From a virus, in the IMG/VR virus record IMGVR_UViG_3300031857_000593, positions 1-36,896 of that record: a stretch of 36,896 nt of DNA; one strand, given 5' to 3'. The stretch's first letter is position 1; the number at the start of each line of letters is the position of its first letter. The position numbers and the translations under genes were made by a program. Positions 925 to 35,516 of this stretch are shown here, piece by piece. The notes below the pieces were generated by a model that worked only from the letters and a program-made list of their open reading frames with translations, did not search any database and was not told where the DNA came from.

Positions 925-1200
925 GTGGAATGGTCAGAAGTATCTGACGTGGAAGAAGACAACGAACTTCCCAAAGTAATCAACGTCCTACGAATGGTTA
1001 GTTACTCTGTAGAAGAGGCGCTAACTAGTCTGCAGGAGTTTGGGGAGTACCCAGAACCAACGATAGAGGATGTTATGAACGTCGTGGCAACGTGGGCGAG
1101 CGAAGACTTTGGGTGTGATTGGAATCATCCGGTAGACCCAACAAAACTTGTCTACACCGACGAGTACAACAACATACTCTATGCTCCAGGTGAGGCATGA
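925..1200 (+). CDS. Small acidic hypothetical protein
   Basis: A 91-residue protein of unknown function with a GTG start chosen because AGGAGG (915-920) sits 4 bases upstream. It is rich in Glu and Asp, has no Cys cluster apart from one Cys, no membrane segment and no family I recognise. Its stop overlaps the start of the SNF2 helicase (ATGA at 1197-1200), so the two are probably translationally coupled and it may act with, or simply be co-expressed with, the helicase. It is a real gene by its ribosome binding site and tight packing; the function is open. Confidence 0.75.
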   Translation: MEWSEVSDVEEDNELPKVINVLRMVSYSVEEALTSLQEFGEYPEPTIEDVMNVVATWASEDFGCDWNHPVDPTKLVYTDEYNNILYAPGEA

Positions 1201-2657
1201 GACAGCCTAGACCGGCAATCGTGCCGCCGTCCAACCAGCTAGTTCTACCGTCCCTCAACATAAGCCTGTACGACTACCAAATCGAAGCGTTTGAATGGGC
1301 TGTGTCTAAAAAGCAGTCTTATCTTGCGTTAGATATGGGTTTAGGTAAAACAGCAATAGCTATTGCTGTGGCGTCTGCCCTAGTTGAGCAGGAGCAACAA
1401 AAAGTACTAATCGTAGTACCACCGAGCTTGGTGTGGAACTGGGTTAGCGAGATAAGTAAATTTAACCCTAATCTGAAAACTGCTGTACTCAGAGGTCAGT
1501 CCGTGCACAGTCTTCCTGATGCGGATGTTTACATTATCGGTAACGCAGTTCTAACTCACTGGTCAGTAGCCCTTATGGGAGAAATTGATGCAATCATCGT
1601 TGATGAGGCACATTTCTTCAAGAATGCATCAAAGCGTACCAAGTCTTTGATAAACATAAGTAACTATCTGCCTAGTGATGCGGTTAAAGTACTGATGAGC
1701 GGTACGCCCGCTCCAAACGGTAGAAACATGGAACTCGTATCTCAGATAGATTTCTTGGGTTCTAACGCATGGGCAGGAATAGGTGGTATTGGCCACTTCT
1801 ATCAACACTACGCACCGTGGTCTGGTAAAACAGTAAACGGTAGAAAAGTTGGTAGGATATCAACCAATGACCTAGACCTTAAAAATCGTATGCATGACTC
1901 TTTTATGTTCAGACGTAAGAGAGACGAGGTAATTGATTTGCCTACCAAGTTTCGGGCGACCGTTACTTTGGAAGGTTCTGGCCCCGCAGTGCAAGATTAT
2001 ATGGATGTCCATAATGATCTCATTGCGTGGCTTGAATCAATAAACCGAGACACTACGGGAGCCGAAAGAGCATATGCTTTGGTTCAGCTGGGTTACCTAC
2101 GAAAACATGTTGGTAGAGCAAAGACAGATGCCATTATCAAACATGTATCGGAGATACTGGATAACGAGCCAGGTGGAATGTTTATTGTTGCCGAGCACGT
2201 AGACACAATGAACGCCCTTACTGCTGGGTTATCTAAGTACAACCCCTGTGAAGTGCGAGGTGGTATGTCGGAGGGCGCTAAAAAAGCAGCGGTCAACGAC
2301 TTCAACAGTGGTGCTTCACGAGTAATGGTTGGGCAGATTATCTCAGCTGGTACAGGATTAACACTTACTGGTAATGGTGTAAACCAAAACTATCGTGGTG
2401 TTATTGCCCAGTTACCTTGGAATCCTGCCTCACTAAAACAAGCAGAGGATAGGTTACACCGAATATCACAAACACTTGATGTTCACATAACCATACCTTT
2501 GTGCCACATCGAAGGATGCGAAACAATTGATGAGAGATTGTGGAGTGTCCTTGAAGAGAAAGCCTTTTCTACCGGCATTCTAATTGACGGTCAAGGAGAG
2601 GTACTGCTAGAGCAAATACAAAACGGAGTCTTGGACTCGTACAGAAAGCGAAGATAG
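1197..2657 (+). CDS. SNF2-family helicase/translocase (copy A)
   Basis: A 486-residue superfamily 2 ATPase of the SNF2 type, of the short single-subunit kind seen in phages. Visible motifs: Q-motif region DYQIEA near residue 26, Walker A DMGLGKT (46-52), DEAH box (136-139), motif III MSGTPAPNG, and motif VI AEDRLHRISQ in the second RecA-like domain. All catalytic residues look intact. Such proteins translocate on double-stranded DNA and remodel forks or displace bound proteins; SMARCAL1 is a distant relative. There is no fused nuclease or HIRAN domain. The ATG overlaps the previous stop, and the next gene, a coiled-coil protein with a Gam-like layout, starts 2 bases after its stop. A second, more divergent SNF2 gene with the same kind of partner lies at 31385-32932. 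Confidence 0.93.
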   Translation: MRQPRPAIVPPSNQLVLPSLNISLYDYQIEAFEWAVSKKQSYLALDMGLGKTAIAIAVASALVEQEQQKVLIVVPPSLVWNWVSEISKFNPNLKTAVLRGQSVHSLPDADVYIIGNAVLTHWSVALMGEIDAIIVDEAHFFKNASKRTKSLINISNYLPSDAVKVLMSGTPAPNGRNMELVSQIDFLGSNAWAGIGGIGHFYQHYAPWSGKTVNGRKVGRISTNDLDLKNRMHDSFMFRRKRDEVIDLPTKFRATVTLEGSGPAVQDYMDVHNDLIAWLESINRDTTGAERAYALVQLGYLRKHVGRAKTDAIIKHVSEILDNEPGGMFIVAEHVDTMNALTAGLSKYNPCEVRGGMSEGAKKAAVNDFNSGASRVMVGQIISAGTGLTLTGNGVNQNYRGVIAQLPWNPASLKQAEDRLHRISQTLDVHITIPLCHIEGCETIDERLWSVLEEKAFSTGILIDGQGEVLLEQIQNGVLDSYRKRR

Positions 2658-2659
2658 CC

Positions 2660-3025
2660 ATGTCAGCAATAAACGAAGTGATCAAAGACACCGCTCAAGA
2701 TTGGGTCAAGCTAAAAGCAGAGCTGGACGTGATCAAGAGCAAGTTTGAAGCCTTGGACGCCATGTTGAAAGACATGATGTATGAATCTGGGGTTACAACT
2801 GTAACCCTGGACGAAGTAACGATTGAGCTGTCTACTCCTGCTAGACGGTCTTTCGACGCTCAAGTGCTCAAAGATCTGGTTAGTGCTTCAGTGTTCAACA
2901 AGGTTACCAAGCCTTCCGTTGACACACAGTTGATGGATGCCGCGATCAAGATGGGCACGATAAAGCAGGAGGTGGCTGATCAAGTAACAAAGAAAACCGA
3001 GTACAAGCAACTACGAGTGAAATGA
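2660..3025 (+). CDS. Gam-like coiled-coil protein, partner of SNF2 copy A
   Basis: A 121-residue protein. The first third is a Leu/Lys/Glu-rich coiled coil, followed by a short beta segment (VTIELSTPARRSFD), helices, and a terminal strand TKKTEYKQLRV. This order (coiled coil, strand with basic residues, an [FL]D step, helices, Tyr/Lys-rich last strand) resembles phage Mu Gam, the Ku-like protein that binds DNA ends and shields them from host nucleases. I infer the relationship from layout, not from a search. It starts 2 bases after the SNF2 helicase stop, and a protein with the same plan follows the other SNF2 helicase (30937-31377). Alternatives: a generic coiled-coil helicase cofactor. Real gene, moderate confidence in the Gam link. 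Confidence 0.6.
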   Translation: MSAINEVIKDTAQDWVKLKAELDVIKSKFEALDAMLKDMMYESGVTTVTLDEVTIELSTPARRSFDAQVLKDLVSASVFNKVTKPSVDTQLMDAAIKMGTIKQEVADQVTKKTEYKQLRVK

Positions 3026-4055: not shown

Positions 4056-4653
4056 GTTCGTTCACTTCGCGTGTGAGGACGCAGACGGAAACAGCGAGGG
4101 CTTCATTGAAGCCCCGTATGGTGTAAGCGCACTGTCCTTGGTGCGTGTCATTGACGAGTTGTCAAACAGGTTGCCCCACCGGTCAATGTTGTTCGACCAC
4201 GTTGATCCCTGTGTTCTTGAGATAGACGACGAGGGGAAGGTGTGTAGGACATATGAAATTGGAGAAATGGAGTTTGAAACTCTCCAAGATCTTATCGCGT
4301 ACATTTGTGTACACCCTGGAATGCTCAGTTACAAGCAGTTCGGAGTGATTGCTCCTGGCAGAGGCTACAACGCAGATACCGGTGAGATGCGCACTGTGTA
4401 CATTTGTTTGTATAGCGACGGCCCTGGTTCTGTTGAATCCGTTGTGTGGGACAATGACCAACGAGTGCTCCTCATGAAGCCTTACAAGTTGGAGCGTAAC
4501 CAAGGCACTATTGGTGACGCAGTTCTGTTGTTGTCCAACAAGCTGGCCTTCGACCTTCTTCCGGAATCGGTCAAGACTAAGGATTTGACAAACACGGTGG
4601 AGAAGAACATCGAAGCTGGGTTTGCGTTCATAACCAGAAGGGACAATAGTTGA
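4048..4653 (+). CDS. Hypothetical protein, 201 aa
   Basis: An unrecognised 201-residue soluble protein. The ATG at 4048 is preceded by GGAGGAA (4034-4040). It is acidic with mixed alpha/beta character; a stretch around residues 125-145 contains VYICLYSDGPGSVES and VLLMKPYKLER, suggesting a beta-rich core. No catalytic motif or membrane segment is seen. The start lies within the end of the 58-residue gene, which suggests translational coupling. After its stop there is only a small inverted repeat (4655-4670) before the next gene. Confidence 0.72.
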   Translation: MDEFVHFACEDADGNSEGFIEAPYGVSALSLVRVIDELSNRLPHRSMLFDHVDPCVLEIDDEGKVCRTYEIGEMEFETLQDLIAYICVHPGMLSYKQFGVIAPGRGYNADTGEMRTVYICLYSDGPGSVESVVWDNDQRVLLMKPYKLERNQGTIGDAVLLLSNKLAFDLLPESVKTKDLTNTVEKNIEAGFAFITRRDNS

Positions 4654-4684
4654 TGGAGGCAATCTCCTCCGTTAAGGTGTTCTC

Positions 4685-4894
4685 ATGGTCATGCAACATA
4701 AATCAAAAGCCGTGAAGAAGATGTTTAGGAAACTTGAGGATCTTGGGTTTTCTATTACTCGGAATAAGGGTGGGGTGTATAAAATTACACCCCCACCCAA
4801 CATCCAAGGACCAACGTATTCCACACACGGAACCGAATCGTCTCTGCATCCGATGAGACGAGACTTCAAAAAGTTGTACAAAGTAGAGGTATAG
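4685..4894 (+). CDS. HicA-fold (dsRBD-like) small protein lacking the catalytic His
   Basis: A 69-residue basic protein starting at ATG 4685, with AAGGTG (4674-4679) upstream; ATG 4691 is a possible alternative. The pattern KMFRKLEDLGF, then a Lys-Gly step, KITPPP, and STHGTESSLHPMRRDFKKL follows HicA toxins and the HicA-like proteins common in actinophages: helix, strand, [KR]GSH turn, strand, then a last helix. HicA is an mRNA interferase whose active His sits in that turn. Here the turn reads NKGGVYKI, so the His is replaced by Val and RNase activity is doubtful. No HicB-like antitoxin is adjacent; the next gene is a WhiB. It may be an RNA-binding protein derived from HicA. Confidence 0.55.
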   Translation: MVMQHKSKAVKKMFRKLEDLGFSITRNKGGVYKITPPPNIQGPTYSTHGTESSLHPMRRDFKKLYKVEV

Positions 4895-4895
4895 G

Positions 4896-5171
4896 ATGAC
4901 AAATTCAGACTGGATAGAGCACGCTGCTTGTAGAGGCAAGCCAATTGAAATCTTCTTCATTGAACGCGGGCAGTCAAGCCGCGAAGCAAAAGAGATATGC
5001 AACTCATGCAGCGTAAAATCAGAATGTTTGGAAGACGCACTAGATGTAAAACATGAAATAGACATGTTTGGCATCTTTGGTGGGTTAAGTCCAAGAGAGC
5101 GCAGAAAGGAACGTCATAGACGCGCTAAAGAGCAAAGCATTAGTGTAGACTCACTCTCGTCGCAATCGTGA
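4896..5171 (+). CDS. whiB: WhiB-family transcriptional regulator (first copy)
   Basis: A 91-residue WhiB-like protein. The four Cys that bind a [4Fe-4S] cluster are at 12, 35, 38 and 44 (C-x22-C-x2-C-x5-C), followed by the GIFGGLSPRERR turn and a basic C-terminal tail (RRKERHRRAKEQ) that can contact DNA. WhiB proteins are found in actinobacteria and their phages and regulate transcription through the primary sigma factor. The ATG overlaps nothing but is one base after the previous stop, with GAGG (4886-4889) upstream. It probably modulates host or phage transcription; targets are unknown. A second WhiB lies on the other strand at 9801-10175. Confidence 0.92.
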   Translation: MTNSDWIEHAACRGKPIEIFFIERGQSSREAKEICNSCSVKSECLEDALDVKHEIDMFGIFGGLSPRERRKERHRRAKEQSISVDSLSSQS

Positions 5172-23958: not shown

Positions 23959-24462
23959 TCATGCTCCGAATCTTGATGTTCTGCTGTCTTTACTACTTAA
24001 ACCAATTCTACGACTTAGCTCTCGCGAAAGCAACTGGGCCCCGCGTTCACAGGATTCAAATACAGCTTCAACGAGTTTACGATAAGCTCTAGAAACTTGA
24101 TACTTCTCTTGCTGAGCAACAACCCTATGGTCGGTGTCTCGACGTGCCTTAGCAATGGTTACCCGGTCACCCTTAACATCAGACCCCCACTGCTCAATCA
24201 ATACTTTTGCTTCTGTGATTCTACATAGGTTGCCATCCCTATCTTCATCAATTTCAGCTTGCACTAACTGGCCCTTTGTGTAAGATACCCAAGACATGAA
24301 CTCTGTATACAAATCCATTAGGTCACTGTCGTCTAGGTCGTCTAGGTGGTCTGGTAGTTCTGGTGGGTTGTCTGACGGCCTAGTAGGCAGGGAGAACTTA
24401 CTCTTAAATTTGGAGAGAGCAGGGTCTCCATCATCTTTTGGTATTACTCTCAATTCCAACAA
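23959..24462 (-). CDS. Hypothetical protein next to the Cas4-like nuclease
   Basis: A 167-residue protein; TTG 24462 (or 24459) is the start, overlapping the Cas4-like gene by 13 bases. The N-terminal third is disordered and acidic with the run PDHLDDLDDSDLMDLY, followed by helices (FMSWVSYTKGQLVQAEID) and basic C-terminal segments (VAQQEKYQVSRAYRKLVEA). The pattern is known to me from actinophages beside Cas4-like genes, without assigned function. A role with the nuclease is plausible from gene order only. Confidence 0.66.
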   Translation of the reverse strand: MLELRVIPKDDGDPALSKFKSKFSLPTRPSDNPPELPDHLDDLDDSDLMDLYTEFMSWVSYTKGQLVQAEIDEDRDGNLCRITEAKVLIEQWGSDVKGDRVTIAKARRDTDHRVVAQQEKYQVSRAYRKLVEAVFESCERGAQLLSRELSRRIGLSSKDSRTSRFGA

Positions 24463-25319
24463 ACTTTCTTGTAGGGGCAGTATTTACAACCGTTAGCCTT
24501 ACTATCAGATGCCCAAACTGGGCGCTCTGGTTCTGTGTTGTCATCTAAGTGTGCAATAACTTTGCTACAGTTGTCAAGAATTGGCTGCATTATTTCTTCT
24601 TGAAAGGTAACAGTAAATTCCTTTACCTCTTGGGTGGGCTTCCACTCATAGATGAACACTATTTTGTCGTGGCCTGTGCAGTGCATGTAGATGTGGCCCT
24701 GACGGACGTGGGACGCAAATGGCTTTTTTATGTTTTTCCAAAGGCCGTCTAGGGTTAGTTCACCACTTGAGTATGCTTTGTACAAGTTTGGGTGATCCCA
24801 CCGCACGGTGCCAAGGCCAACGCTCTTTATTTCAATAAGGGCTTTGCCTTCCCCATCAACCAATTCTCCATCCGCGTGACCGAGTATGCGAAACCCATCG
24901 TCACGTACAGGTACCTCGCGATAAAGGACATTACTAGAATTGCACTGGTGGCAAGAGCTAGGAGAAACCCCGTACCATACTTCAGAGCACGACGCACATT
25001 CCCATTTGCCACCAAGGATGCCAGCTTGGTGCATCCACTTCTGCCACTTTGCATGAATCGCATGGCCCTCCTCAAACACATTTAATCTAGTCATATTATA
25101 TGACTCATCTGAGGCAGGATACTTGTTAATTTTATACCATGCGGCTCTAGCACACCAGTCTTTCTTTGAAAGCTCAGAGGGATGCAAGTGGTCAGTGTCT
25201 CTGTGTTGGTTTCTCTCACGGTTGTTTACCACAAGCCGCTCTTGTATTACTGGTAGTATACGACCTTTTGACTTTATTGATTCTTTGTAAGTCTTGGCGT
25301 ACCAAGGTGTCTCTGTCAC
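24450..25319 (-). CDS. Cas4-like PD-(D/E)XK exonuclease with zinc-ribbon insert
   Basis: A 289-residue nuclease of the RecB/Cas4 type. The conserved Cys arrangement is visible: DWC at residue 56 and CKYCPYKKVC at 278-287, a [4Fe-4S] site in Cas4 and AddB. The catalytic core is GHADGEL (Asp 150) and ALIEIKSVG (Glu 163, Lys 165), followed by a VRQGHIYMHC helix with the QxxxY step. A zinc ribbon (CASC at 108-111, CHQC at 123-126) is inserted. Actinophage relatives are annotated as Cas4-like exonucleases and are expected to resect DNA ends for the RecA-like recombinase. No other Cas gene or array is present, so it is not part of a CRISPR system. Confidence 0.88.
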   Translation of the reverse strand: MTETPWYAKTYKESIKSKGRILPVIQERLVVNNRERNQHRDTDHLHPSELSKKDWCARAAWYKINKYPASDESYNMTRLNVFEEGHAIHAKWQKWMHQAGILGGKWECASCSEVWYGVSPSSCHQCNSSNVLYREVPVRDDGFRILGHADGELVDGEGKALIEIKSVGLGTVRWDHPNLYKAYSSGELTLDGLWKNIKKPFASHVRQGHIYMHCTGHDKIVFIYEWKPTQEVKEFTVTFQEEIMQPILDNCSKVIAHLDDNTEPERPVWASDSKANGCKYCPYKKVCWN

Positions 25320-27110: not shown

Positions 27111-27555
27111 CCTCGTCATCCTCCTCTAAGTCGTAATCGTCATCTGATAGTGCTGATGATAACATGAATCCTAGCAGTGACACAATATTAGTTTCAACTA
27201 ATGATGGGTCATACTTCTCAGGTTCGACAATGTTCAGCATCTCTTGGTCAATTAGGTGAGCTATGGCTGCTATACCAAAGGCTGTAATAATGTTCTCTGT
27301 AGAGACAATGGTGTCCTCGTCTAGATCGCTAGTATCACGCAGGATGTTTACCATCCAGTTTGCGCATTCTTTTACGCTGTCTAGGATACCTGCGTGAGAT
27401 AAAGTAAACCATTTTTGCATTATGTCCATGATTTCGTGTTCTTGAACTTCTGCAGAGGGAACAGAGAACCCTGCAGCATGCGCTAACTTCTGCCCTTCAA
27501 GTATAGAAAGGGTGAGGTAAAAGTTACGCTCTTCGACTGGACTTGACGCCATCAT
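27100..27555 (-). CDS. Helical hypothetical protein with acidic tail
   Basis: A 151-residue protein starting at ATG 27555, which shares its first base with the polA stop (TGATG). It is largely hydrophobic-helical (NIITAFGIAAIAHLIDQEM, SLLGFMLSSAL), though not a clear transmembrane protein, and ends with an acidic tail (DDDYDLEEDDEDEQ). Acidic tails often bind basic proteins or mimic DNA. No family recognised. Coupling with polA suggests a replication accessory. Confidence 0.68.
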   Translation of the reverse strand: MMASSPVEERNFYLTLSILEGQKLAHAAGFSVPSAEVQEHEIMDIMQKWFTLSHAGILDSVKECANWMVNILRDTSDLDEDTIVSTENIITAFGIAAIAHLIDQEMLNIVEPEKYDPSLVETNIVSLLGFMLSSALSDDDYDLEEDDEDEQ

Positions 27556-29642
27556 CACCCTTTCGCCTCCGACCAATTATACGCTGAGTGGCATGAAACT
27601 TTTAACGGAATACCATTAATAATGTTACCATCTCCCATAGCTAATACAAACTTTTGCTGTAACTCGTCAACTATCTGCTCTGGGACCATGGCTACTAGTT
27701 CGTCATGCACCTGGACTAAGATCTTTGATCCTGTCCCAGTTAGTACATTGTTTACATCAATCATGGCTTTCTTACATATGTCAGCAGCAGAACCCTGTAC
27801 CACCGCGTTGACTGCCTGTCTCTCTGCTCTGGACTTTAACATGCTGTCATCCGAGCGCAGATCTGGCAGTCTACGCCGTCTTCCTGAGATGGTCTCAACG
27901 TACCCATTCTTGATACCTGCTTCAATAACACTCTTTTTCCATTTAGTGATGCCAGAGAACTGCTTGTAGTACTGATCGATGACGGAGCGTGCGTGTTCTA
28001 CGTCAACTCCTGTGGTTCTTGCCAACTTTTGAGGGCCACCACCATAAGCCGTAAGGAAGTTAACACCTTTACCAAGCTGGCGTTCTTCTGGAGTAACCTC
28101 AGACACATCCTTACCTAGGATAAGAGCGGCAGCACCCGCGTGGATGTCCTCGTTGTTCAAGAAAAACTCGCTCATCTTTTTGTCTCCGGAGAACATGCAC
28201 ATAACACGAAGCTCGATCTGGTCGTAGTCAGCGACTAGCAATACATGGCCGGGGTTAGCTACGAATAAACCACGGACGCTACTGTCTCTTGGGATGTTTT
28301 GCAGATTGGGGTTGCTGGAGGAAAGTCTTCCAGTAGCTGTTCTATGCAGGTGGAACGACGGGTGCAGAGAACCTTTGTGTAGTTTGGTAAGTAACCCATC
28401 AACATAGGTTGACTTGATCTTTTTAGTTTCTGCCCAGTCTATAAGCAGCGGTACTACAGGGTGTTTGCTTTCAAGATTGCGAAGAGCTTCTTCATCAACC
28501 GATGCCGAACCCTTGTCGGTGTACTTGGTGGGCTTTAGCCCAAGACCACCCTCGCTTTTCTTGCTAAACAACAGTTGTTGTTTGTGCTTAGGGCTGTCTG
28601 GGTTAAACCCAGGAGGTGCGTAATCCATCATCCCAAGCAAGAGTTCATTTAGATGAGTGTCTAACTCTTTGCCAAGCCTAGTCATGGAGCGATGGTCTAC
28701 GGGTATCCCGTTGTCTTCCATGTCCATCAACACACGGATAACCTCCATGTCTTGCCGAAGGCAGGAAAGCAACTGCTCTTTATTTTGGATCTTTTGCCAC
28801 AGGACTTTGTATAGATGCCATGTCCACTTTACGTCTAGGTGCACGTACCTAACTGCTTTGGAGAATGGCACCTGAGTGATTATTGCACCAATCTTGCCGT
28901 CCATGTGATAGGGGTTAAAGCCCCCAAAATTGTGGGCAATCAGTTTGTCAAGGCTGTACTCAGAAAGATTCTCATTGAGAATGTGCTGGATAATCATCGT
29001 GTCGATGAACGGCCCATCGGGTAAGCGGTCGTTGTAATACTTGCGGATCGATCTGGCGTCAAACTTGACGTTGTGGCCAACCTTGACAACATCACTAAAG
29101 AAGATTGGTTCCAAAACTTTGAACACGTCAGTACGTGAAAGTTGCTCAGGAGCTGCTGAGTACTCAGCCGGTATGTAGTACCTAGCCTTTGCCATGGACT
29201 CTTTGCCATTTGCTAAGACTTTGCGGTAACCAAGAGGTGGTGTGGTTGTACCGTCACCCCGTTCTTCTGGTACGAGTATCTCACCATTTGGGTGGCCCAT
29301 GGGTACGGCCCAGGACTTACCCTCTGTTGCTAAGCCAATCCAAAAGACTTCGTTTCTCATTGGATCTAGGGCCAAAGTGTTTTGCCACCTAGTGATGATG
29401 GCCTCTTTAGATCTAGCCAACACATCCTCAGATGTTGTTTTCAGAGTGCTTTCGTGCTGCTTCCACTCTTGTTCAATCCACGCAAGAACATCACTGTGAC
29501 GTTCTACGTTGCCGCGTGTTTCTACGTCAAAAGCAAAAGCGCCAACACTCTGGATGTGTTGGACAATTTTGTGAAGCTCTTCAATTGAAGATACTACGTG
29601 GGGGGCCATGAGGCCCCCCACGTGGTTGTTGAGTTGTGACAT
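27555..29642 (-). CDS. polA: DNA polymerase I (family A) with 3'-5' exonuclease domain
   Basis: A 695-residue polymerase without the 5'-3' exonuclease domain, typical for phage replicative PolA. Exonuclease motifs: FAFDVETRG, VGHNVKFDAR and YVHLDVKWTWH. Polymerase motifs: motif A LLVADYDQIELRV, motif B RQLGKGVNFLTAYGG, and motif C QVHDELVA. The residue matching E. coli Phe762 is Phe. I start it at ATG 29642 (1 base after the SSB stop, probably re-initiation); ATG 29609 lies in the loop of a perfect hairpin and is a second candidate. The polymerase should copy the phage genome with the helicase, primase and SSB encoded upstream. Confidence 0.95.
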   Translation of the reverse strand: MSQLNNHVGGLMAPHVVSSIEELHKIVQHIQSVGAFAFDVETRGNVERHSDVLAWIEQEWKQHESTLKTTSEDVLARSKEAIITRWQNTLALDPMRNEVFWIGLATEGKSWAVPMGHPNGEILVPEERGDGTTTPPLGYRKVLANGKESMAKARYYIPAEYSAAPEQLSRTDVFKVLEPIFFSDVVKVGHNVKFDARSIRKYYNDRLPDGPFIDTMIIQHILNENLSEYSLDKLIAHNFGGFNPYHMDGKIGAIITQVPFSKAVRYVHLDVKWTWHLYKVLWQKIQNKEQLLSCLRQDMEVIRVLMDMEDNGIPVDHRSMTRLGKELDTHLNELLLGMMDYAPPGFNPDSPKHKQQLLFSKKSEGGLGLKPTKYTDKGSASVDEEALRNLESKHPVVPLLIDWAETKKIKSTYVDGLLTKLHKGSLHPSFHLHRTATGRLSSSNPNLQNIPRDSSVRGLFVANPGHVLLVADYDQIELRVMCMFSGDKKMSEFFLNNEDIHAGAAALILGKDVSEVTPEERQLGKGVNFLTAYGGGPQKLARTTGVDVEHARSVIDQYYKQFSGITKWKKSVIEAGIKNGYVETISGRRRRLPDLRSDDSMLKSRAERQAVNAVVQGSAADICKKAMIDVNNVLTGTGSKILVQVHDELVAMVPEQIVDELQQKFVLAMGDGNIINGIPLKVSCHSAYNWSEAKG
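29578..29591. repeat. 14-bp perfect palindrome in polA 5' region
   Basis: TCTTCAATTGAAGA is a perfect 14-bp palindrome, 4 bases from the strong hairpin at 29596-29623. It is coding, but two palindromes in a row at the start of polA are unusual. Confidence 0.75.
29596..29623. promoter_or_regulatory. Perfect 12-bp hairpin overlapping a polA start codon
   Basis: ACGTGGGGGGCC (29596-29607) pairs with GGCCCCCCACGT (29612-29623) around a 4-base loop. In the mRNA an in-frame AUG (29609) sits in the loop, 33 bases after the upstream AUG (29642). The hairpin has no U-tract, so a terminator is unlikely; a translational or replication-linked role is possible. Confidence 0.7.
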
Positions 29643-29643
29643 A

Positions 29644-30333
29644 TCAGTCAGACAAATCTTCCAATGCAATCTGGATGAGGTCCTTGCGGGACGGGATCTG
29701 AATGATATCGGCGGTGTACACAGACTTGTTCATGACCTTGAAGTCTGCTTCAGTCAGGGTATCGATGTTCCACTCTTCTAGGTCTCGCTCCTTGACCAGC
29801 TGGTGGTTGGTTGCGGAGGTAGCACCCTTACCCGAACGGCTTACGGCCCAGAAGTGCTTAGACAAAGGTCCTTGCCGTGGGTCAACGTGGAAGTTCTTGA
29901 GTTGGTCAATGACTCTAGGACCAACCTCGTAGGACTTCAGGACTGGCTCTGAATCAGGAGACAGCAAGACAACGTTGAACGCAAACCGTGTTGACGGACG
30001 GCTACCGGCATCGCACAGTGGGCAACCCTTGGGGTCGAGGTCGGCAATGCAGGTGAATGACTTCTGTCCTGAGCGCTCAACCCAGTGCTGTCTGTAGGTA
30101 GCGTAAGGCTCATCTTCAAGGAACTTGATGATGATTGGTTCTTCGCTAACACGAAGGCGTTGGGCGTACGGTGAGTCTGCGGACTTTGCCTGCTCTACTG
30201 CTCCCCATCCACGGCGGATGGCACTCGCGGCACTAACAGATACCGCGTCGTCGTCCTCTACTACCTTTGTCTGTCGGCGTACAGGAGCTTCTTCTTCCAT
30301 CACTTCGGTATCGTCGTCGTCGTATCTTGACAT
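29644..30333 (-). CDS. Single-stranded DNA-binding protein, T4 gp32-like
   Basis: A 229-residue protein. The N-terminus is acidic (DDDDTEVMEEE); the core includes IIIKFLEDEPY, FTCIADLDPKGCPLCDAG (Cys 95, 104 and 107, a zinc site as in T4 gp32) and FAFNVVLLSPDSEP, consistent with an OB-fold SSB of the actinophage type. It should coat single-stranded DNA at forks and help polymerase and recombinase. Directly upstream of polA with a 1-base gap and downstream of a MerR-type HTH gene. No classical acidic C-tail is visible; the last residues are LEDLSD, which are mildly acidic. Confidence 0.82.
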   Translation of the reverse strand: MSRYDDDDTEVMEEEAPVRRQTKVVEDDDAVSVSAASAIRRGWGAVEQAKSADSPYAQRLRVSEEPIIIKFLEDEPYATYRQHWVERSGQKSFTCIADLDPKGCPLCDAGSRPSTRFAFNVVLLSPDSEPVLKSYEVGPRVIDQLKNFHVDPRQGPLSKHFWAVSRSGKGATSATNHQLVKERDLEEWNIDTLTEADFKVMNKSVYTADIIQIPSRKDLIQIALEDLSD

Positions 30334-30787: not shown

Positions 30788-30950
30788 TTGTTGCCTCCAT
30801 GTAGGCGTTCTTCCAGTAGTCACGTTCTTCCATCAAAAACTCAATCAAGGACACTGCCTGTTTAAAGCGTACTACGTCGTAAGTTCCACCAGTTGCAGTA
30901 TGCACAACAGCGTGTGCTTTTAACCATTCGTAAATTTCACTCGTCGTCAT
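30768..30950 (-). CDS. Small hypothetical protein, 60 aa
   Basis: A 60-residue helical protein beginning MTTSEIYEWLKAHAVV, with EFLMEERDYWKNAYMEA near the end. ATG 30950 overlaps the Gam-like gene's stop by 14 bases; AAGAG is upstream. Not recognised. It sits between the Gam-like and the MerR-type gene. Confidence 0.62.
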   Translation of the reverse strand: MTTSEIYEWLKAHAVVHTATGGTYDVVRFKQAVSLIEFLMEERDYWKNAYMEATSATRSS

Positions 30951-31377
30951 AACTCTTGCTTTCTGAGAACTTGAAAGCCCACGTCTCTTTCTTTACATAC
31001 AAGTTGTCTAGGGCTGGCTTTAGCTCTGGGTTTTCCCATACCTTACCAAGAAGCTTATCTTCATCCAGTACTCTAACTACCTCAGACACATCATCCCAAA
31101 TGTTGTTCTCCTTGGCCCATGACTCAGCCTCCCTAGAATCTAGGTTAACCGAAACACGACGCTCTCTTTTGATCTGGAAGTCTCCAGCTCTCAGCCACTT
31201 ATGTCCTTTGTCATCCTCGTCACCAAAGGTGTCTGCTTGGTCATTTAGCTCTTTCTTTAGTTGATCTAGTCTGACCTGGTACTTATCAATTAAGCTCTTA
31301 AGGTCACTGTATTCCTTGCTGATCAGGGCTAACTCCTGAGCAGGGTATCTACGGATAATCTTAACAACCTTTTCCAT
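30937..31377 (-). CDS. Gam-like coiled-coil protein, partner of SNF2 copy B
   Basis: A 146-residue protein. A long coiled coil (LALISKEYSDLKSLIDKYQ, RLDQLKKELNDQ) is followed by LRAGDFQIKRERRVSVNLDS, helices with VVRVLDEDKLL, and YVKKETWAFKF. The layout, coiled coil, basic beta strand, [VL]D step, helices and a KK-[TE]-[YW] strand, resembles phage Mu Gam and the protein at 2660-3025. It starts 7 bases after the second SNF2 helicase, with AGGAGAG upstream. Mu Gam binds DNA ends like Ku and blocks exonucleases; whether this protein does so is inferred from layout. Other coiled-coil proteins remain possible. Confidence 0.62.
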   Translation of the reverse strand: MEKVVKIIRRYPAQELALISKEYSDLKSLIDKYQVRLDQLKKELNDQADTFGDEDDKGHKWLRAGDFQIKRERRVSVNLDSREAESWAKENNIWDDVSEVVRVLDEDKLLGKVWENPELKPALDNLYVKKETWAFKFSESKSYDDE

Positions 31378-32933: not shown

Positions 32934-33851
32934 TTAGGTAATCCAAGGTGGTAGGACAGTTGCGGTATCTAATCCTACCTTAATTTCCTCGTCTTCCATG
33001 TCACCTATGTCCTTGCAGTCTGAACCACTGTAGTTCCACCACAAAAGCCCTGCTCTTGGTGTACCTATTGCTTTGTAAATCTTTTTACTAGAAGCAATCC
33101 CAGCGTCATCGTTGTCCATAGCTACAACAATTCTATCAGCGACATACAAAGTTAATCTTAGTTGTTCATCAGATACATACGCACCGAAGGTACCTAATGC
33201 CTGAGCATCTAACCCAAGAGATGCAAACCGAACTACGTCCAATGGCGATTCAACAAGTACAGCTGTAGTGCTTCTAAAGCGTTCTATGCCAAATAGAGTC
33301 TTGGACTTTTTTACTCCGTTTGGGTAGTTCAGCACACTACCATGCTTCTTCTCTTGCCAACCCTCTAAGCGACCTGTTGGCGACATTATCGGTATGGCCC
33401 AGGCTCTGTGATCTTTGTTCCACCTAACGCCATGCTTGTGCGTTAGCTCTGGGTCAAGGTTTCTTGACTCACACAAAGCTTCTGGTACTCTTGCGAACCC
33501 AAAGAACACATCTCGATCTACGTAGGTTTCTTCTTGTACGATCTTTGGTGCTTTTAGGGCTTCAAAAGAAGACTCAACCAACATCTTCTGTATGTCAAGA
33601 GAGTTGGCTCCACCAGTCAGTTCGTACAGAAGTGAGGACAAAGACCCTCTGGCTCCGCAGGAAAAGCAAATCCATAGTCCGGTGTTGGCATTCATGCTCC
33701 ATGACGGGGAGTTGTCATGTCGCCCAACCGTCCTAATGTGAACAGGGCATTTACCGGTGATCTCTCGTTCACCAACTCGCTTGATCTCTACGCCCACTGA
33801 CTCTAGGACTTGAGCGATGTTAATCGAATGAGGGGTTGATGTAGTCGTCAT
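32934..33851 (-). CDS. DnaG-type primase (CHC2 zinc finger plus TOPRIM)
   Basis: A 305-residue short primase. The zinc-binding domain is visible as CPVH (35-38) and CFSC (62-65); the TOPRIM domain has the catalytic Glu in VLVESPLDV (201) and the Asp pair in AMDNDDAG (246, 248). It makes RNA primers at the fork. It lacks the C-terminal helicase-interaction domain of bacterial DnaG, so helicase coupling must use other contacts. ATG 33851 overlaps the end of the helicase gene by 32 bases; GAGGAAG lies upstream. Typical of actinophage primases. Confidence 0.9.
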   Translation of the reverse strand: MTTTSTPHSINIAQVLESVGVEIKRVGEREITGKCPVHIRTVGRHDNSPSWSMNANTGLWICFSCGARGSLSSLLYELTGGANSLDIQKMLVESSFEALKAPKIVQEETYVDRDVFFGFARVPEALCESRNLDPELTHKHGVRWNKDHRAWAIPIMSPTGRLEGWQEKKHGSVLNYPNGVKKSKTLFGIERFRSTTAVLVESPLDVVRFASLGLDAQALGTFGAYVSDEQLRLTLYVADRIVVAMDNDDAGIASSKKIYKAIGTPRAGLLWWNYSGSDCKDIGDMEDEEIKVGLDTATVLPPWIT

Positions 33852-35073
33852 AGTCGTTTACTTCCTCAAACTCCATAGTAGACCAGTCCCACTTTACATG
33901 CACTTCTCCAGTTGGTGCAGTTCTTGCTAGGACAACTCTGATAATTGCTTGATCATCAACGTCTGGGTTGCGCTCTACACCAAGGATCAAGTCAGCGTCC
34001 TGTGCGAACGACGAGGTGTAACCAATTGCGTCAGCTGTAACTGCTCTTGTCTTTCTGTTCTGTAGCTTCCAAGAGAGAACCTGAGTAGTGGCTACGACAG
34101 GAATGTCAAACCGTTGGGCAAGTCGCTTTAGTGCTCTAGTGATGTTGGTCAGTGCTTGTGGGGAACCCTTGGCTTCACCCTCTTCATCGTCCATCAAGTA
34201 CACACCGTCGACAACAAGCAAGTCCGGTTGATACTCCTGTACTTTGCCAGCCAGAGCTGTGACAGTAGTTAGAGAAGATGTGTCTTCGCTAAACACAAAC
34301 GGTTGCATGTTCTTTCGGAGACTCAATGCACGCTTGATTTTTGCCATGTCCGCATTTGACAAATCTCCTGAAAGTATCCGTGTGTAAGGAACTCTGGAAA
34401 TAAGTGAGTCGTACCGAGCTTCCTGTTCCTCAATACTCATCTCAAACGAAACAAACAATGGTCTCTTGCCGTGGATGTGTGCTGAGTTAGCCAAGATCAA
34501 AGCAAACAATGACTTTCCTCGCTTGGGCTCTCCAGCAAAGACAATAAACTGTTGTGGGCGTAGTCCGTGAGTGATTCTGTCAAGACCATGAAACCCTGTT
34601 GGTATACCACGCAAAGCGTTTGGTGTGTTGCGCATCTCTTCGTAACGAGACATGCGGTTTTCCCAGTTTTGAATGATATCAATGTCACGAAGTCTTGACG
34701 ATTCAACTGACGCTTTCTGTAGACCAGCCGCAAGAGCGGCCATTGCGTCGTCAATATCATTGTTGTTGATTGCAGGTATGGCGTGAGACAAAGAATCCAT
34801 GATGGTTCTCTGCCGATAAGCAGACAGAACCTCATCGATCAATCTGGAGAATGTTTCGCCTGATGCATCCTCCAAATGAATGTCACCAAACTCTTGTGAG
34901 AATACCCGCTCAGTCGGTACTGCTCCGTGTGTTCTTTGAAAGTCAAGTAGCCAAGACCACACCTCTACCCACGACCCAGTGAAGTGATCAGGCTTTAGTC
35001 CTGCTCGCACTGGCGTCGTCATGTCTTTTTCTTGAATGATTTTTGAAACGAGATACAGCTCACTGGAAGCCAT
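33820..35073 (-). CDS. DnaB-like replicative helicase
   Basis: A 417-residue helicase. Start at ATG 35073 because GGAG lies 6 bases upstream; it overlaps the stop of the upstream gene (TGATG). An N-terminal helical domain is followed by the RecA-like core: PTGFHGLDRITHG, Walker A GEPKRGKS (181-188), Walker B LLVVDGVYLM, VVATTQVL and DADLILGVERN. It unwinds DNA as a hexamer at the fork. The order loader, unknown, helicase, primase is a classic phage replication unit. Confidence 0.92.
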   Translation of the reverse strand: MASSELYLVSKIIQEKDMTTPVRAGLKPDHFTGSWVEVWSWLLDFQRTHGAVPTERVFSQEFGDIHLEDASGETFSRLIDEVLSAYRQRTIMDSLSHAIPAINNNDIDDAMAALAAGLQKASVESSRLRDIDIIQNWENRMSRYEEMRNTPNALRGIPTGFHGLDRITHGLRPQQFIVFAGEPKRGKSLFALILANSAHIHGKRPLFVSFEMSIEEQEARYDSLISRVPYTRILSGDLSNADMAKIKRALSLRKNMQPFVFSEDTSSLTTVTALAGKVQEYQPDLLVVDGVYLMDDEEGEAKGSPQALTNITRALKRLAQRFDIPVVATTQVLSWKLQNRKTRAVTADAIGYTSSFAQDADLILGVERNPDVDDQAIIRVVLARTAPTGEVHVKWDWSTMEFEEVNDYDDYINPSFD

Positions 35074-35516
35074 CAAATTCTCCAAGCAGTGTTTGGTTGA
35101 ACGACGTGAGCTCGTAAGCCTATCGTGAAAGCATCATCGTCGTTGGCAACGTAGACAGTTTTTATTCCCCGGTTGTAACGCAGGTCGAGAGCATACTCTT
35201 TGGCTGACGGGTAATACAACACGGTTGTGGTAATTCCTTTCCGAAGGAGCCAGTTGTATATAGGGTCTACGGCGTCCTGTGAAAGAAACGTGATTACGTC
35301 AGTACCGATGTGAAGCCTGTTTGTACAGTCTGCAATTGAACGAACCGATAGGTCGTTCGGCTTCCACATTGGTATAGCTGACTCCCAATTGTTGGCTCTC
35401 TCGTACAGACGATAACGAGTTTTTGAAGTAAATCCTTCAGGTGGGTTTGCCAAAACCCCTTCCCATATACACGATTGGGCAATCGTCGTGTAATCGGATA
35501 TATCCCCACGCTCCAT
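35073..35516 (-). CDS. Hypothetical protein between loader and helicase
   Basis: A 147-residue protein from ATG 35516, overlapping the loader's stop by 1 base. ADCTNRLHIGTDVITFLSQ and a Tyr-rich stretch lead to IKTVYVANDDDAFTIGLRA, a possible acidic loop reminiscent of the last HAD motif, though no first HAD motif exists. It is conserved in position in phage replication clusters I know, but no function is known to me. The gene order suggests a role with the loader or helicase. Confidence 0.6.
   Translation of the reverse strand: MERGDISDYTTIAQSCIWEGVLANPPEGFTSKTRYRLYERANNWESAIPMWKPNDLSVRSIADCTNRLHIGTDVITFLSQDAVDPIYNWLLRKGITTTVLYYPSAKEYALDLRYNRGIKTVYVANDDDAFTIGLRAHVVQPNTAWRI

Follow-up and report, generated by a model that had tools for sequence, protein, structure and literature searches.

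Gene content of the window

The window, by which we mean the whole stretch of DNA that was analysed, is the complete 36,896-base virus record IMGVR_UViG_3300031857_000593, from a freshwater phage. An earlier note on this DNA had pointed to two places, 1197-3025 on the plus strand and 32932-30937 on the minus strand, at which an SNF2-type helicase gene is directly followed by a gene for a small protein, with gaps of 2 and 7 nt. Both pairs, hereafter pair A (snfA-gamA) and pair B (snfB-gamB), are borne out by the open reading frames and the PF00176 scores, and the gaps, read from identical loci, are as given there. The genes considered here are collected in Table 1.

Table 1 Genes of the window, their positions and the basis of each assignment.
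Feature	Position	Strand	Basis
VWA-domain protein, C-terminal part, cut by contig end	1..916	+	VWA_2 match 0.00046, below cut-off
snfA, SNF2-type SF2 ATPase, 486 aa	1197..2657	+	ORF; PF00176
gamA, 121 aa, coiled coil and small alpha/beta head	2660..3025	+	ORF; DUF7376-like below cut-off, weak Gam/Gp157 similarity
Cas4/RecB-type exonuclease	24450..25319	-	homologues in BRock-like phages; phrog_434 E 8e-6
DNA polymerase I-like protein (probable)	27555..29669	-	letters
ssDNA-binding protein (probable), same gene cluster as snfB-gamB	29644..30333	-	letters and position
gamB, 146 aa, coiled coil and small alpha/beta head	30937..31377	-	ORF; alignments; model
snfB, SNF2-type SF2 ATPase, 515 aa	31385..32932	-	ORF; PF00176
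DNA primase (CHC2 zinc finger and Toprim), directly upstream of snfB	32934..33851	-	PF01807, PF13155, phrog_47
DnaB-like helicase (probable), upstream of primase	33820..35085	-	position and letters; LuckySocke gene 122 'DnaB-like dsDNA helicase' at same place

The truncated VWA gene has full-length homologues that adjoin MoxR and snfA in relatives, and it is a member of a MoxR-VWA-SNF2-gamA cluster. The product of the exonuclease gene is 36-41% identical to its homologues in BRock-like Streptomyces phages, several of which are annotated as Cas4 exonuclease. An open reading frame at 4896-5171, which by its letters we take to encode a WhiB-type actinobacterial regulator, points together with the BRock-like replication genes to an actinobacterial host. 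The second gene after gamB is MerR-like and encodes a helix-turn-helix protein.

Two SNF2 proteins of separate origin

With 76.6 bits for snfA and 131.1 bits for snfB, both proteins exceed the curated PF00176 cut-off of 24.9 bits. The Walker A, DEAx and motif VI patterns of SNF2 proteins are intact in both, reading LDMGLGKT, DEAH and QAEDRLHR in snfA and MGAGKT, DEAT and QREARIIR in snfB. The two proteins are only about 24% identical, and in a tree built from 38 SNF2 proteins of phages, rooted at the midpoint and with four long-branched rows, a branch with support 100/99 places them on opposite sides; MN1, phiLo and Kovu fall into the half of snfA, and BRock, Dp-1 and KLEB27-3 into that of snfB. 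The earlier reading that the helicases are divergent and not a recent copy thus stands. Since the two proteins fall into different SNF2 lineages, it is unlikely that one pair was duplicated into two within this phage, and this origin was set aside. At 1e-5, 888 records of the phage collection match snfA and 847 match snfB; to our knowledge, what SNF2-like genes do in phages is largely unknown.

Linkage of snfB and gamB

The association of snfB and gamB was followed from both sides. The SNF2-alignment search, which kept the 80 best of at least 595 relatives, gave 79 new loci (48-100% identical to snfB), and 77 of these have a gamB homologue just downstream, the gap being -41 to 12 nt in 73 of them and 172-367 nt in four. 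As for the two misses, one contig (L370) stops shortly behind SNF2 and the other (L397, snfB 51% identical) shows no gamB. The gamB search yielded 53 loci, and snfB lay upstream in all 52 that have upstream sequence (L049 has none), within 7 nt in 33 and at 151-883 nt in 19; the two sets of counts share some contigs and are not independent. In five of the 19 wide-gap loci the gap was read by eye. A small ribbon-helix-helix-like gene lies in it in L059, L062, L068 and L069; in L055, at about 4500-4860, a gene that is Hsp20-like by its letters stands between SNF2 and gamB.

A homologue of gamB also occurs in six records of Streptomyces phages (five phages), among them BRock gp99, which matches the gamB profile at 97.4% (E 1.2e-11). 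In BRock the HNH endonuclease gene gp100 separates it from the SNF2 gene (L219:4086-4532), an insertion absent in LuckySocke. The pairing survives inserted genes, HNH in BRock and ribbon-helix-helix-like or Hsp20-like ones by letters elsewhere, and the gamB-type partner stays with its SNF2 lineage down to 39% identity for snfB and 16% for gamB. Judged by these gene neighbourhoods, pair B is a real, long-conserved unit and part of the DNA-copying gene cluster of the phage.

Outside this lineage the picture is different. The earlier proposal was to lose its ground if phage SNF2 genes were generally not followed by such proteins, and this is largely what the survey of neighbours unveiled, as most of the sampled genes stand without such a partner. 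Twelve named phages were chosen from the listed SNF2 matches; none of the 11 outside the BRock group has a gamB-profile match anywhere in its record at E<=0.1, and only in Dp-1 does a clear gamA-like gene lie within the stretch examined around SNF2.

Linkage of snfA and gamA

For pair A, the gamA search returned 19 loci, and in all 19 snfA lies directly upstream, 2 nt apart or with a 4-nt overlap. The snfA-alignment search gave 78 new loci (from the best 80 of 184 relatives), and gamA was present in 17. In two close relatives of snfA that lack it (L242, L250) the sequence stops before or inside the gene. Around the 59 more distant snfA relatives (24-48% identity), neither the gamA nor the gamB profile finds a match at E<=0.05 within the stretch examined, and no gamA lies near the snfA homologue of L261, which is 48% identical.

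Ten of 32 records have a gamA match below 1e-10, and gamA adjoins snfA in six of these (the window, G002, G003, G005, G006 and, with a gap of 229 nt, G052); in G060 and G071 it stands behind the VWA gene, and G055 and G039 have it in another place. Two additional matches, the second one of G052 (7e-4) and that of G011 (0.006), coincide with the position of gamB. In 13 wider regions the order of the MoxR-VWA-SNF2 cluster with gamA varies, and in G065, G025 and G058 snfA accompanies MoxR-VWA with no gamA found. MoxR AAA and VWA genes lie beside SNF2 in eight of the 13 regions (L414-L419, L425, L426), which possibly represent a MoxR-VWA-SNF2 phage cluster.

These arrangements bear on the alternative that pair A is an accident of gene order and that gamA serves MoxR-VWA or has an independent function. 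The four records in which gamA follows VWA or lies elsewhere speak for it; the invariably tight spacing in the 19 gamA-fetched loci, the near-adjacency in G052 and the position of the Dp-1 gamA-like gene, about 550 nt after SNF2, speak against it. We regard this alternative as a serious contender that falls a little short of being favoured. In any case pair A is looser than pair B and not a strict two-gene unit; gamA belongs to the MoxR-VWA-SNF2 cluster. The conserved pairing of an SNF2 gene with a small partner gene that had been proposed for both is supported for pair B and is not supported as a strict unit for pair A, whose variable layout warns against equating the two.

Two SNF2 genes and two small partners in one phage

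Fifteen further large contigs were compared, 14 of them chosen by snfB and one (G025) through snfA; 11 hold a snfA-like gene together with snfB, on opposite strands in nine of the 11. G003, G005 and G006 also hold both. Six of the 11 snfA-like genes are close to snfA (41-51% identity), and five are 32-36% identical, with no MoxR or VWA in the regions fetched for them. Both gamA and gamB are present in nine records, the window included. No snfA-like gene was seen in four of the 15 contigs and no SNF2 gene beyond snfB itself in 18 snfB-side contigs, fragments that cannot prove absence. A second SNF2 gene is thus usual in this phage group.

The small proteins and their relation to each other

The common plan that had been described for the two small proteins is evident in the letters, with an N-terminal coil, an RR strand, an [FL]D step, helices and KKTEY or KKETW near the end, and it fits the predicted secondary structure. 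The strand described as basic is so only locally, as both proteins are acidic overall (pI 5.5 for gamA and 5.05 for gamB), a character that lends no support to simple nonspecific binding of DNA. In gamB, EDDKGHKW and RR are invariant in the 29-row alignment A2 and weaker in the 59-row alignment A5. The structure models are of modest confidence, with a pLDDT of 68.8 for gamA and 81.9 for gamB (pTM 0.50). In L005:5001-5432, where snfA equals that of the window, gamA runs into the next open reading frame from about residue 111 and its last strand is replaced, which reflects either a faulty assembly or a small deletion that arose naturally.

On the sequence comparisons at hand, neither protein has a confident family. 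The gamB protein of the window has no Pfam match below 0.1, and among 50,697 phage records tblastn found no match to either small protein at E<=0.01. A profile scan of the genome collection produced 59 stretches that fit the pattern, none of them a relative. When viral contigs were scanned with the A1 and A2 profiles, 19 and 53 loci were obtained; judged by eye, these contigs are those that the single-sequence scans had given.

Profile comparison connects the two proteins with each other, at E 2.5e-4 with ten gamA rows, at E 5.2e-6 with 15 rows (one protein being present twice, as G060 and L418; none of 60 shuffles reaches the score) and at E 1.2e-5 with other alignments. The coils alone give E 2.1e-6, whereas the parts behind the coil give P 0.21, with 31 of 100 shuffles as high, and P 0.076 (6 of 60) in a second test. 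Most of the significant signal thus comes from the coiled coil, and common descent of the heads is plausible at most.

These values are also what would be expected if the proteins were unrelated, shared nothing but a coiled coil and had arrived at the same plan by convergence, and the DUF7376 match of one gamB member (L057), which is confined to residues 21-64 and hence to the coil, fits this as well. The full gamA-gamB alignment, however, is collinear over 103 columns and runs through the RR-[FL]D step. Furthermore, the gamA-type profile A6 gives a second match in G052, at 7e-4, where gamB is expected to lie, and phrog_2362, phrog_2480, phrog_434 and DUF7376 each match some members of both groups, in part perhaps through the coils. 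On balance we consider convergence doubtful.

Similarity to Gam, Gp157 and Ku

The small proteins had been called Gam- or Ku-like. Profiles of both Gam and Gp157 respond below their cut-offs. Against PF07352 (Phage_Mu_Gam, cut-off 28.3 bits), four of 29 gamB members give sub-threshold matches (best 0.024), as does one of 59 (0.0019); the gamB protein of L057, with 12.7 bits and E 0.12, aligns collinearly from 31-117 to 36-123, past the coil. In 49 records PF07352 finds nothing at E<=1, and a search of the window gave no match either. The Mu Gam-like family phrog_253 is matched below threshold by all ten gamA members (best 0.0034) and by gamB at 0.061. PF05565 (Sipho_Gp157) is matched at E<=0.1 by seven of ten gamA members, the best of which (L006) reaches 18.2 bits against a cut-off of 28.6 and aligns collinearly from 4-99 to 55-145, beyond the coil (E 0.0027); PF05565 does not match the window record at E<=1. 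DUF7376 (PF24091) is matched by ten of ten gamA members, the best at 4e-5 and 23.9 bits, below the cut-off of 27. Among the Ku chains in the PDB, gamA gives only '1jjr thyroid autoantigen', which we take to be a Ku70 piece, at the chance level of E 0.53, and gamB gives none.

Direct comparison by hhalign gave P 0.062 for gamB (3 of 60 shuffles as high) and P 0.23 for gamA against the Mu Gam profile, and P 0.2 and P 0.31, respectively, against Gp157. For comparison, the positive control of Mu Gam against Gp157 fails in the same set-up (E 0.46, 39 of 60 shuffles as high), although a Gp157-domain protein is reported to match the Gam structure 2P2U at 99.41% (PMC10530707); the test therefore lacks the power to speak against a relationship. 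It used narrow alignments, that of Gp157 consisting of seven near-identical proteins (L400 and L401 left out), and the Mu Gam scan kept the best 80 of 107 relatives.

In PDB profile searches 2P2U was absent from the matches; A1 gave none, the best values were 2.1 for A5 and 0.14 for A6, and the best of A2 (0.0015) was a receptor-associated protein in the coil region only. Foldseek and VIA comparisons of both models with the PDB gave nothing at E<=0.001, with 2P2U not among the rows shown and best VIA Z values of 4.3 for gamB (dephospho-CoA kinase) and 3.7 for gamA (langerin coil). In a viral structure library the gamB model matched small phage proteins, seven at E<=0.001; further down, at rank 37, came 'Siphovirus Gp157' with a probability of 0.92 (E 0.039). 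Foldseek matches to KellEzio and TIN4 proteins, and the match of gamA to positions of about 270-370 in phrog_434, raised the idea that the head may also occur fused to RecB-like exonucleases. The KellEzio relative Kitkat gp74, however, has no significant profile match, phrog_434 misses the Kitkat record at 0.001, and in TM4, TPA4 and Hibiscus the annotated exonucleases, at about 250-285 aa, do not seem long enough for such a domain.

The Gam part of the earlier claim thus persists as a hint, carried by sub-threshold Gam and Gp157 matches, some collinear beyond the coil, and by 'host nuclease inhibitor' labels in three Streptomyces phage records, whereas no match exceeds the Phage_Mu_Gam or Sipho_Gp157 cut-off, no fold match in the PDB reaches E<=0.001 and no Ku match is significant. 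A Gam/Gp157-type similarity of the small proteins is hinted at; membership in Phage_Mu_Gam, Gp157 or Ku would go beyond these scores and is not established.

The same data bear on the idea that the small proteins guard DNA ends in the manner of Gam against host exonucleases of the RecBCD, AddAB or AdnAB type, with SNF2 as helper. Besides the phrog_253 and PF07352 matches, this idea draws on three of the six Streptomyces phage records (LuckySocke, Alone3 and GiJojo), in which the gamB homologue is labelled 'host nuclease inhibitor'; in pSt2308 and one BRock record it is labelled hypothetical. The labels rest on the annotators' methods, however, and Pfam shows no Gam in the four Streptomyces homologues scanned. 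Together with the empty PF07352 search of the 49 records, the absence of 2P2U from the profile and Foldseek rows and the P values against Mu Gam, this makes a Gam-like end guard unlikely.

Proposed function

As pair B lies between the primase and, by letters, the polymerase I-like gene, with the Cas4-type exonuclease further down, a role in replication or recombination is natural. Our preferred reading, to which we assign a probability of roughly one half, is that pair B serves the replication-recombination machinery of the phage as an accessory translocase module and that pair A contributes a second SNF2 of separate origin. snfB would act as an SNF2-type translocase on double-stranded DNA, and gamB would be its co-translated, physically associated small partner, a coiled-coil oligomer with the small alpha/beta head of its predicted topology. 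Forks, joints or ends are where gamB would most likely contact the DNA, and there it would load, position or restrain the motor; the two proteins could serve fork remodelling or branch migration in recombination-dependent replication. Protection of DNA ends by pair B is possible too; sequence does not distinguish it from fork remodelling or from loading of the motor. The acidic pI and the absence of the partner beside most of the sampled phage SNF2 genes suggest a specific partner and not a general DNA coat. In pair A, the second SNF2 belongs to the MoxR-VWA-SNF2-gamA cluster; gamB and gamA are probably distant relatives, the tight place of gamA behind snfA being one of several arrangements.

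One further explanation starts from an NCBIfam RapA match in snfB (E 1.3e-18, 66.7 bits) and from the MerR-like gene downstream, and would have snfB act on RNA polymerase in the way RapA does, gamB being a cofactor in transcription. The score falls far short of the cut-off for RapA, 576, and snfB is clustered with primase and, by letters, with DnaB and polymerase I, so that we consider this highly improbable. Returning to the translocase module, a conserved small partner of one SNF2 lineage offers a direct handle on what the motor works on. Going further, one might tentatively see in the Gam/Gp157-type protein a recurrent, independently recruited partner of SNF2 proteins (snfB, snfA and Dp-1 gp61), a DNA-end or fork clamp that would direct the motor; we hold this broader view to be rather unlikely.

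Comparison with known systems

In the open PMC literature searched, which leaves most subscription papers outside, no description of an SNF2-Gam pair, or of a two-gene module of SNF2 and an end or fork clamp, was found. PMC10530707 and PMC13299392 link Gp157 and Mu Gam-like proteins and do not contain the term 'SNF2', TOTE is explained in PMC12458937, and the text of PMC12839542 does not contain 'Gam'.

The closest known relatives of pair B are in the Streptomyces phages BRock, LuckySocke, Alone3, GiJojo and pSt2308, whose SNF2 proteins belong to the same lineage as snfB (about 38-39% identity), with BRock gp99 and others as homologues of gamB. BRock and LuckySocke share the helicase-primase-SNF2 order with the window; unlike the window, they have a single SNF2 match and no gamA was found in them. 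Mu Gam (PF07352; 2P2U) resembles gamA and gamB in that a long N-terminal coil is followed by a small alpha/beta head, and in weak matches; it differs in that the proteins of the window score below the PF07352 cut-off and 2P2U is not in the fold matches. In phage Sfi21 the small protein orf157 (Sipho_Gp157, PF05565) is clustered with the SF2 DEAH helicase orf443, as here, but it lies upstream of the helicase with the ATPase gene orf233 between them, and the helicase scores as ResIII, its SNF2 match being below the cut-off.

In the Eggerthella phage LE2-3 (L226:4336-4956), an open reading frame shortly after SNF2 matches the gamB profile weakly (E 0.029). The gp64 protein of the Streptococcus phage Dp-1 (L225:2261-4872), annotated as hypothetical protein, has a relative in phage MS1. 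It fits the gamA profile (hhalign E 3e-6), and its gene follows that of the SNF2 protein gp61 at a distance of about 550 nt; in contrast to pair A, two other genes lie between them and gp61 falls into the snfB half of the tree. Dp-1 gp61-gp64 is thus a possible third association of an SNF2 protein with a Gam-like protein.
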